Below, in pieces: positions 27,099 through 29,402 of a stretch of DNA of 29,402 nucleotides; position 1 is the stretch's first letter; each line of letters starts with the position of its first letter. Origin of the DNA: a virus. The translations under genes and the position numbers were made by a program. The stretch covers positions 1 through 29,402 of the IMG/VR virus record IMGVR_UViG_3300008120_008257; one strand, 5' to 3'. The notes beneath the pieces were generated by a model. It was not told the origin of the DNA, did not search any database, and worked only from the letters and a program-made list of their open reading frames with translations.

Positions 27099-27722
27099 TT
27101 ATTTTGCGTAAAAGCCCAATCTAGCTTGCGGCAATAGATTATCGGCATCGTCTTTGGATTCAATCCAAACATATCCAGAAGGAACATTTATTTCTTCTCC
27201 TTGCCACACTGGTATTAATTCTTGGTAAGATGTAGGATCGGGCGATGCTCTTAAATGGACTTCTATAATTTTATTTTCTATAAATTCTACGTTTATATAT
27301 TCGCAGTCGGATAGATAGCTTAGTAATAAAGGTAAATTTATTTTTTTATCAGTTTTGATCCATTTATTAAATTTATATAAATGATTTAGATCGTTAATGC
27401 CCTGCATTGCAGAAATTTGTTCCCATGCATTATTTTTCCATCGATAATCGATGCTGTATTGTTTACCTTTAAATTGTTCGCACCAAAAGTATCCAGGTGG
27501 CACACTGGTTAAATCAGATGGGTCTAATTTTTGTATAGACGCACAAAGCCCCATACCTCTTAAATTATATATAGGCCTTACTACATAGTTATTAAGTTTT
27601 GGTACAGGAACACCACCTGGTCCGCAAATATATCCAAGTTGCTCACTCAACCAAAGTTTATTAAACCAATTATGATGCTGTGGAAATTTGCGCCATGCCG
27701 AAACATCGTCATCAATAATCAT
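27099..27722 (-). CDS. Conserved phage protein of unknown function (207 aa)
   Basis: A 207-residue protein. Visible features: MIIDDDVSAWRKFPQHHNWF at the start, VPVPKLNNYVVRPIYNLRGM with a Gly-Met-Gly turn, PPGYFWCEQFKGKQYSIDYR, and a C-terminal VPSGYVWIESKDDADN. The RPIYNLRGMG and FxGxxxSIDY pattern faintly recalls ATP-grasp proteins, but I cannot place the metal-binding residues. I chose the ATG at 27722 because its ATGA overlaps the stop of the preceding frame; an ATG at 27755 is also in frame but inside that reading frame and without a Shine-Dalgarno. It is probably coupled to the frameshifted upstream gene. Confidence 0.6.
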   Translation of the reverse strand: MIIDDDVSAWRKFPQHHNWFNKLWLSEQLGYICGPGGVPVPKLNNYVVRPIYNLRGMGLCASIQKLDPSDLTSVPPGYFWCEQFKGKQYSIDYRWKNNAWEQISAMQGINDLNHLYKFNKWIKTDKKINLPLLLSYLSDCEYINVEFIENKIIEVHLRASPDPTSYQELIPVWQGEEINVPSGYVWIESKDDADNLLPQARLGFYAK

Positions 27723-27940
27723 GTCTTCTCTATTGCGTGTTTTCTGGCAGACCATGCCATTTGAACTTTTTTCTCTGGTGTTTTGTTTCTAAACTGATGA
27801 TAACGATTTGGATCAGCGCTCAAGAATGTATCTTCCCATTGGTCAAGAGGGACTTGTGGAGTTAGTTTAACTACCGGTTTTGGTTTATCTTTATCTTGAG
27901 CAGGAGGAGCAGCCGGATCTACTGGCTCCTGCTCTTTTAT
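27719..27940 (-). CDS. 73-residue extension reached by -1 frameshifting (no start codon of its own)
   Basis: This open frame starts at a stop (about 27976) and has no ATG or GTG before its far end and only one TTG (near residue 40), which would leave a fragment. It encodes an acidic Pro-rich linker (PVDPAAPPAQDKDKPKP) followed by a compact segment with PLDQWEDTFLSADPNRYHQF and KVQMAWSARKHA. Its codon pattern is protein-like, and its TGA overlaps the next ATG (ATGA). It is entered by a -1 shift from the upstream gene at the A7 run, giving a fused C-terminus. A single-base homopolymer indel in the upstream gene is the alternative explanation. Confidence 0.65.
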   Translation of the reverse strand: MKEQEPVDPAAPPAQDKDKPKPVVKLTPQVPLDQWEDTFLSADPNRYHQFRNKTPEKKVQMAWSARKHAIEKT

Positions 27941-27946
27941 TTTTTT
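27898..27946 (-). promoter_or_regulatory. Programmed -1 frameshift signal: A7 slippery run plus stem-loop
   Basis: In the frame of the upstream gene the codons are CTA-AAA-AAA-TAA, so the heptamer A-AAA-AAA (27946-27940) ends directly at the stop. After a 5-base spacer (TAAAA) begins GAGCAGGAG (27934-27926). Its perfect 9-bp complement CTCCTGCTC lies at 27906-27898, with a short inner CC/GG pairing in the loop. Slippery heptamer, spacer and GC-rich stem are the three parts of a bacterial -1 frameshift signal. Confidence 0.65.
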
Positions 27947-29402
27947 AGTTTTGATTCTAAGGTTGAGGATAAATGGTTAAAATAGTTGTCCTCATTTGTT
28001 GGCACACAATTGGGAACTGTTTTTCCATTTTTCTTTTTAGTTCCTACAGGTTTGTAGCCTTTCCAGCAAGGATTATCTTTCGGATCTTTTAATCCTTCTC
28101 CGACACTTTTTTCTTTTTCATTTTTTAATCGAGGTAAATTAGTAGGGGTCCATTTATGTCCTTGTTTAGAAGCAGTCCTTGCTTCGTCTCGCCACTTCTT
28201 ATTTGTTTCTCGTTGATCGATATTAGGACTTTCTGCTACATTTTTCTCTCTAAATTTTAATTGTCCTTGTGCAGTATCTCTGTCTAAATCATGTGGTGTT
28301 TGTTTTAATGCATCTAGTTTGTTAATACCTTTTTCCTTGGCTAGTGCGTCGGACCGATTCCACCAATCAGCTCTTCGATTATTCCAATCTTTGCGGTCTG
28401 TTTGACATTCTTTATAAAGTTGAACGAGTTCTGATGTAGTTGCATGTTCTAAGTCACTAGCATCCCAGCCTTTTCGTCTTGCAATATATTTGATTAATTT
28501 TCTACGTTTGTCAAATTCGCTGCCTGTTGGTAAACCTTCTCTCATACCTTTTCGACCCATTTCACCTTGACGCATTGTGTAGTCAGTGTAATCATCTTCT
28601 GGTTCTCTGTCAAGACTGCCATCTAAAGAAGCATCAGTAAATGAACTCATCCAAGCATCTTGGTAGATAGGATCTTCTGGATTGTATCCTAAATGTCGAG
28701 CAACTCGGCTGCTCATTTGTTTAATAGTTTCTTCGTCGTTGCCTTGGTCGTAGAGTTTAATCAATACGCTAGCAATCTTATCCTTCATTTGCTCGTATTT
28801 GATATAACCTGGAGTTCCATCATCTTCCGCCACACCTTCAGACTTTGGTTCCCAATATTTTCCAGGACCAAATTTACCACCTGCTTCAGGGTTAGGATAT
28901 TTAGAATACCATTTTCCGTTTTTAGTTTGTTTTAATCCTACCATTTGTGCTGTTCTCTCTTCACCAGGTCTGACATTATAAAAATACATACCTTTTGGTG
29001 GAGGAGAAGCAGGTCTATAATTTCGACCGCCTTCATCACCTAATTCAGAATCTAATTCTCTACGTTTGAAATCGGCTTTTTCACGATCTAATTTTCCTTG
29101 AAAACTGCCATAGCCTTCCGCCACACCTTGCTCTTTAGGTACAGGATTTTTAGGTAAAGGTTTAGGAGGAAACTTTACTTTTATATCGGACAATTTAGGT
29201 TTCTTTTTACCCTTTTGTAAATCTGGATCGTACAAAGGACCACCCCAGTCTGCTCTTTCCGCCACACCTTCTTCGTCGCCTGATAGACTTTGTAAGACGC
29301 TGTTCATAAAGTCTGCGGCCTTAGTAATTTTACTTTGTTGCCAAGCCTCTAGTCCTTCTTCTTCGCTTTTCTGTCTAACCATATCTAGTAGTTGAGCAGC
29401 AT
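27937..29402 (-). CDS. Modular phage protein with repeated EGVAE motifs, 5' end outside window
   Basis: At least 488 residues. The frame is open past the ATG at 29382 to the window edge (AAQLLDM precedes it), so the start is probably outside. The N-terminal segment AWQQSKITKAADFMNSV is a motif I recall from T4-like phage proteins. Three EGVAE-type motifs and one NVAE divide the chain into hydrophilic modules, and near the end CWKGYKPVGTKKKNGKTVPNC forms a small two-Cys basic module seen in other aquatic-phage proteins. It has no enzyme motif and is very charged, so a scaffold, core or DNA-associated role is a guess. It ends at an A7-TAA frameshift signal. Confidence 0.7.
   Translation of the reverse strand, partial: AAQLLDMVRQKSEEEGLEAWQQSKITKAADFMNSVLQSLSGDEEGVAERADWGGPLYDPDLQKGKKKPKLSDIKVKFPPKPLPKNPVPKEQGVAEGYGSFQGKLDREKADFKRRELDSELGDEGGRNYRPASPPPKGMYFYNVRPGEERTAQMVGLKQTKNGKWYSKYPNPEAGGKFGPGKYWEPKSEGVAEDDGTPGYIKYEQMKDKIASVLIKLYDQGNDEETIKQMSSRVARHLGYNPEDPIYQDAWMSSFTDASLDGSLDREPEDDYTDYTMRQGEMGRKGMREGLPTGSEFDKRRKLIKYIARRKGWDASDLEHATTSELVQLYKECQTDRKDWNNRRADWWNRSDALAKEKGINKLDALKQTPHDLDRDTAQGQLKFREKNVAESPNIDQRETNKKWRDEARTASKQGHKWTPTNLPRLKNEKEKSVGEGLKDPKDNPCWKGYKPVGTKKKNGKTVPNCVPTNEDNYFNHLSSTLESKLKK
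28824..28839 (-). repeat. EGVAE-encoding DNA repeat, copy C
   Basis: Contains the core AAGGTGTGGCGGAA (minus strand), identical to the copies at 29116-29129 and 29257-29270. It encodes Glu-Gly-Val-Ala-Glu with the same codons each time and marks a module boundary in the long modular protein. Confidence 0.8.
29115..29130 (-). repeat. EGVAE-encoding DNA repeat, copy B
   Basis: The same AAGGTGTGGCGGAA core at 29116-29129, about 290 bases from copy C, here read as Gln-Gly-Val-Ala-Glu. Codon identity across copies suggests recent duplication or recombination between modules. Confidence 0.8.
29257..29271 (-). repeat. EGVAE-encoding DNA repeat, copy A
   Basis: The same AAGGTGTGGCGGAA core at 29257-29270, about 140 bases from copy B, encoding Glu-Gly-Val-Ala-Glu. 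A fourth protein-level relative (NVAES) near 28235 has diverged in DNA. Confidence 0.8.

Follow-up and report, generated by a model that had tools for sequence, protein, structure and literature searches.

The window, by which we mean the whole stretch of viral DNA analysed here (29,402 nucleotides, IMG/VR record IMGVR_UViG_3300008120_008257), carries on its minus strand the 3' part of a gene for a modular (mosaic) protein; the 5' end lies outside the window, the open reading frame running off its edge. At the gene end the zero frame of this strand reads TCA AAA CTA AAA AAA TAA AAG AGC AGG AGC C. A -1 frame of 73 residues (27940-27719, minus strand, from IKEQEPVDPAAPP to HAIEKT and its stop) opens at this point. 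The features of the locus are as follows.

27937..29400, minus strand: zero-frame open reading frame, the C-terminal 487 codons of the modular protein, ending in NYFNHLSSTLESKLKK and the stop
27940..27946, minus strand: slippery heptamer A AAA AAA (A7 run), from the sequence
27937..27939, minus strand: zero-frame stop TAA, directly 3' of the heptamer
27898..27934, minus strand: putative stimulatory hairpin, in which GAGCAGGAG (27934-27926) pairs with CTCCTGCTC (27906-27898)
27869..27940, minus strand: Pro-rich linker of the -1 frame, IKEQEPVDPAAPPAQDKDKPKPVV, which encodes the hairpin (from translation)
27722..27868, minus strand: C-terminal domain of the -1 frame, KLTPQVPLDQWEDTFLSADPNRYHQFRNKTPEKKVQMAWSARKHAIEKT, with two predicted helices (AlphaFold2, pLDDT about 85 over the domain)
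27719..27721, minus strand: stop codon TGA of the -1 frame; it overlaps the downstream gene's ATG
27099..27722, minus strand: downstream gene, phrog_3577 (unknown), start ATG at 27722-27720; retained in close relatives

Slip site and hairpin

The first-pass annotation had claimed an A-AAA-AAA heptamer directly before the TAA, a perfect 9-bp stem five bases on, and a 73-codon -1 frame without a usable start whose TGA overlaps the next ATG. All of this held, the slip signal at every coordinate: the stem (27934-27926 with 27906-27898) is confirmed, with an inner 5-bp helix within its loop, and the spacer from heptamer to hairpin is 5 nt. The folding energy of the hairpin is -22.0 kcal/mol (z -5.08), and none of 200 dinucleotide shuffles was as stable. 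Against synonymous recodings, which leave the -1 protein of the extension unchanged, the stem gave z -3.0 (0/300) in a test run on L017, a contig near-identical to the window. A7 runs are by themselves unremarkable, the window containing 19 of them, fewer than the shuffled expectation of 42; the weight lies in an A7 run in phase before a stop, together with a stem at 5 nt, an open -1 frame and conservation. A look upstream for a regular Shine-Dalgarno stimulator gave none, a GAGG at -11 occurring in one subclade only and being absent from the window.

Three sequence-level criteria for -1 programmed frameshifting are fulfilled, namely an X XXY YYZ heptamer in the zero frame, a stable RNA structure 5-9 nt downstream (5-nt spacer, -22 kcal/mol, conserved core stem), and a -1 frame that is coding and under selection (median dN/dS 0.16, with a homologous domain fused in frame elsewhere).

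The first ATG, GTG or TTG of the window's -1 frame is a TTG at residue 39-40, and no such codon is present before about residue 28 in any stem-bearing relative. The C-terminal domain, of about 48 residues, is predicted by AlphaFold2 to form two helices and no strands, and a PDB fold search with it returned nothing at E<=0.001. Homologues of the extension were not found in known phages by tblastn across 50,697 phage records, and none was confirmed in bacterial or archaeal genomes. Pfam gave no match either for the extension or for the window's upstream protein, and the PHROGs matches to the latter are small modules of unknown function.

At the other end of the window, the open reading frames 3-395 and 395-910 have a stretch in common (PQPVNDTSPSIFGTYKSCWTGKNVDIVTLEVYSEVLY), which is a partial duplication, and adjoin an open reading frame (1332-1994) with a subtilase-like GTSCAAP motif.

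Conservation among relatives

A search with the extension gave a first set of six IMG/VR contigs. Each has an A-run with a TAA right behind it and carries the extension in the -1 frame; their zero-frame ends differ although the slip site is kept. One of the six, L002 (with L009 and L017 as further copies), has DNA polymerase and extension proteins identical to those of the window and brings no independent evidence. A profile search extended the set to 75 loci, and a DNA pattern search added further ones; L012 and L112 were chance matches to the DNA pattern and were rejected as relatives.

The signal A AAA AAR TAA RN GAGCAGGA is carried by 43 contigs, with the heptamer A AAA AAG in 38 and A AAA AAA in 5, and the TAA next to it in all 43. 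In all of them it links one and the same domain to upstream modules that diverge. The slip site, the stem and the extension frame, for which the first-pass annotation had proposed an alignment of homologues, are conserved. Among 27 unique hairpins, seven positions of the 5' arm are invariant and the core stem AGCAGG/CCTGCT is paired in every one, with loops of 15, 27 or 33 nt; the spacer to the GC-rich stem is 5-6 nt across relatives. Outer pairs show compensated changes (GAACC/GGTTC in L030 versus GAGCC/GGCTC, and a C-G to G-C swap in L024), several are broken in relatives, and six pairs never vary. The covariation score was equalled by 3 of 500 shuffles, a support that is modest only. For this analysis the arms were paired by hand, as unequal loop lengths misalign the 3' arm in a MAFFT alignment of the whole hairpin, which was not used; one of the 15 arms entered in this way, that of L105, has one extra base beside the loop, outside the counted pairs. 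In several relatives the stem is no more stable than synonymous recodings.

Pairwise comparison of the extension domain gave a median pN of 0.23, a pS of 0.73 (near saturation) and the dN/dS reported above, values that point to purifying selection on the extension. GAG, CAG, CCT and GCT, the codons of the stem, are invariant (30/30), as against about 30-39% use elsewhere; the core is invariant although the synonymous sites of the extension are saturated. Comparison thus shows that the slip signal and the tail are conserved and selected. In L026, L030 and L034 the -1 frame runs beyond the tail domain into a further module (ADGKNPQDKGDSKRHGINTKSSVSSLRKTAKQGGRKGQLAHWLANMKAGRAKK).

The signal belongs to a family of uncultured giant T4-like phages. 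Among sequenced DNA polymerases the closest, at about 50% identity, come from large T4-like phages, Sinorhizobium phage Phosso being one.

Other routes to the same domain

Not all relatives reach the tail domain through the heptamer and stem. Four contigs (L007, L069, L083 and L045) have a run of A9-A10 followed by G before the domain, without the linker and without a significant stem. Nine others (L068, L073, L077, L078, L079, L081, L082, L084 and L087) have an A9-A10 run, then G and soon a stop, inside the C-terminal domain itself, where the hairpin site is absent; their zero frame ends in NKTPEKKK (or NKTAEKKR) and the -1 frame resumes with (V/M)MATAA(L/H)YKARQPK. A reading of these nine as in-frame fusions was rejected once this different slip site was found within the domain. 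In total thirteen relatives have A9-A10 runs and no significant stem.

About 20 contigs fuse the whole domain in frame. The first-pass annotation had held that homologues of this kind would refute its proposal; they do exist, yet they form a separate architecture. The Pro-rich linker, which the long A-run relatives also lack, and the stem are both missing from them; they represent an alternative solution and not an error in the window. A DNA polymerase tree requires a minimum of nine changes among the four states, and of five between recoded and in-frame, against a shuffled mean of 14.8. The joining states were exchanged, re-evolved, or moved by recombination. The extension is thus conserved while its decoding route varies. 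Since some relatives simply fuse the frames, not every phage of the group needs two protein forms.

The modular protein and its likeness to gp23

Full-length relatives of the modular protein measure 264-961 residues. They begin with M-x-x-EFKK-...-TRYVLE-SATGGATSAG-xVA (with SATxGATSAG variants) and continue with variable modules that are often separated by GVAEG-like motifs. These motifs are strongly enriched in the modular proteins, VAE being observed 70 times against 6.9 expected and GVAEG 31 times against 0.1. Four of them, each identified by sequence and motif enrichment, lie in the window.

29257..29268, minus strand: GVAE linker motif 1, candidate maturation-protease site
29116..29127, minus strand: GVAE(G) linker motif 2
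28825..28836, minus strand: GVAE linker motif 3
28231..28242, minus strand: NVAE linker motif 4

At the first three, and in relatives, GVAE is encoded by near-identical DNA seams GGTGTGGCGGAA that lie between unrelated modules; it is conceivable that such seams are both protease sites and recombination seams through which cassettes are shuffled between phages. Individual modules vary from phage to phage. A module of L050 has a weak likeness to a GNAT acetyltransferase (a sub-threshold Pfam match), and the modular protein of L032 has a stretch similar to it by eye.

A profile of the N-terminus, searched over eight whole records, matched only the modular gene and gp23, the major capsid protein, with E-values of 1.8e-7 to 1.1e-4 in the five records that contain gp23. 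The likeness was noted in the whole records L148, G003, G004 and G007 and at L145 4258-5439. The matched gp23 stretch, RKYLAE-SATAGATSAGN, is the predicted propeptide cleavage junction. The hhalign probability between the N-terminus and gp23 is 91-94, and 1 of 2000 composition shuffles came close; the likeness is limited to about 20 Ser/Ala/Gly-rich residues. Genomes with head genes contain both a gp21-type protease (PF03420) and gp23 (PF07068). The T4 protease gp21 cleaves behind L/I-X-E, taking off N-terminal propeptides (PMC9026906). The candidate cleavage motifs are L-x-E in the gp23 proteins seen here (LAE, LSE, LVE), and VLE, ILE or TLE in the modular protein, together with the internal VAE; the V-x-E sites differ from the strict T4 motif.

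Since its N-terminus matches the propeptide junction of gp23, we read the modular protein, whose type the first-pass annotation had left unnamed, as probably prohead-targeted. Its entry into the prohead and a cut near the N-terminus are likely, although both are inferred from sequence alone, without virion or cleavage data. Cleavage at the internal V-x-E linkers is inferred in the same way and is less sure.

Discussion

The best reading of the locus, as the first-pass annotation had proposed, is a -1 programmed ribosomal frameshift that yields two C-terminal forms of a modular, probably prohead-carried protein; we consider it likely (probability about 0.83). It is supported by the 43 contigs, by purifying selection and by the lack of a fitting alternative start. 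In this model, ribosomes reading CTA AAA AAA TAA would slip back by one base on A AAA AAA, the slip being caused by stalling at the GC-rich hairpin 5 nt downstream. Most ribosomes would stop at the TAA and release the short form, and those that slipped would bypass it and add the Pro-rich linker and the conserved helical domain. The protein would then be carried into the prohead, where the GVAE-G motifs may be further sites for the gp21-type protease, and the frameshift would set how many copies of a capsid-targeted protein bear the tail domain. Because relatives keep the tail by fusion or recoding, we propose that it has a role in assembly or anchoring for which a fixed dose is required. We only infer that frameshifting takes place in cells, and the same holds for its efficiency, the location in the head, the cleavage and the function of the tail, there being no ribosome profiling, reporter or proteomic data.

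Several other explanations should be weighed. In transcriptional slippage (reviewed in PMC5009743) the RNA polymerase stutters on an A-run, and normal translation of those mRNAs whose count of A's has changed leads into the -1 frame. A9-A10 runs are typical substrates of this process, the thirteen relatives that have them lack a significant stem, and the window's own A7 could also slip in transcription. Against it, 38 of the 43 stem contigs have A AAA AAG, in which six A's are broken by a G, a poor site for transcriptional slippage and a classical one for ribosomes, with a conserved stem at a spacing that suits ribosomes. We regard transcriptional slippage as unlikely for the window, and as possible in the long A-run relatives, where it remains open. 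Short slip sites come with a stem and long A-runs without one, which makes ribosomal frameshifting the preferred explanation in the window. An error of assembly or sequencing, in which a missing or extra A splits one in-frame gene, might be invoked, given how common homopolymer errors are and that in-frame fusions exist among the relatives. However, dozens of independent contigs have the same frame offset, stop, spacer and stem, and most heptamers are interrupted by a G; moreover, a simple indel explains neither the conserved TAA nor a linker and stem that are missing from the fused relatives. This explanation is all but excluded.

The extension could also be a separate small protein, made from a non-standard start near the stem by coupled re-initiation after the TAA, with the AGGAG of the 5' arm as ribosome-binding site. 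It is true that AGCAGGAG is Shine-Dalgarno-like and that the stop and the next frame are close. But none of the stem-bearing relatives has an ATG, GTG or TTG in the frame at a useful distance, the frame opens with ATA in the window and with GTA in most relatives, and the domain cannot be free where it is fused in frame; we find a separate protein very improbable. Lastly, the frameshift may be real and the protein not a head protein, the gp23 match being a chance Ser/Ala/Gly-rich likeness and GVAEG a flexible linker or a recombination seam. This remains possible, as the matched stretch is short and of low complexity and the gene adjoins replication genes and not head genes. On the other hand, gp23 is the sole other match in the whole-record searches and falls exactly on the predicted cleavage site, and T4 internal proteins also have short cleaved N-termini (PMC9026906). 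Internal proteins of T4 are, besides, encoded away from the main head genes.

The frameshift signal resembles that of dnaX in its predominant A AAA AAG heptamer, its 5-6 nt spacer to a GC-rich stem and its shift near the zero-frame stop (a comparison that rests in part on PMC5009743). The gene is different, however, and here the shift adds a domain, whereas that of dnaX truncates; the heptamer is immediately followed by the TAA, and a regular Shine-Dalgarno stimulator upstream was not observed. C-terminal extension by frameshifting has been described for the gene 10 capsid protein of T7 and T3, for the Listeria phages PSA, A118 and A500 and for the Lactobacillus phage A2 (PMC5009743), in which likewise a fraction of the protein gains a C-terminal domain. 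The proteins concerned there belong to the shell or the tail and often carry Ig-like extensions, whereas the protein described here is mosaic, probably internal to the prohead, and gains a small helical domain that does not meet the description of an Ig-like beta domain (two predicted helices, no strands and no PDB match at the above threshold); furthermore, its relatives use long A-runs or fusion instead.

The T4 internal proteins (IPI-III, Alt), with their capsid targeting sequence, share with the modular protein a short N-terminal segment closed by a Glu that is probably a cleavage site, and a gp21-type protease and gp23 in the same genomes. The modular protein is much larger, with several candidate internal cleavage sites, a recoded tail, and a motif that is V-x-E more than L/I-x-E. 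An analogy may also be drawn with retroviral Gag/Gag-Pol, a capsid-targeted, protease-processed polyprotein in which a -1 frameshift adds a C-terminal part to a fraction of the molecules; there is no homology, the virus here is a DNA phage, the addition is a small tail domain and not enzymes, and processing and packaging are inferred. In a bolder reading, which we hold to be less likely than not, the phages would follow a Gag/Gag-Pol-like strategy: the prohead protease would process a capsid-targeted cassette polyprotein into numerous small and exchangeable internal peptides, these would be packaged alongside the DNA and delivered with it, and -1 frameshifting would set the number of copies with the C-terminal assembly domain.

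What appears to be new is recoding in this type of gene; the dnaX kind of signal and the frameshifted C-terminal extension of phage structural proteins were known (PMC5009743). No such frameshift for this gene type, which the first-pass annotation also did not know of, was reported in the open-access literature searched, many subscription papers and preprints being outside its scope. Conserved recoding in tailed phages is sparsely documented beyond tail-assembly chaperones and a few capsid or tail proteins. The same tail reached through a heptamer and stem, an A-run before the domain, an A-run inside it, or a fusion offers a natural experiment on how frameshift sites originate and are replaced. 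The apparent link to the capsid, in turn, makes testable the idea that phages may preload exchangeable internal peptides from one polyprotein gene.
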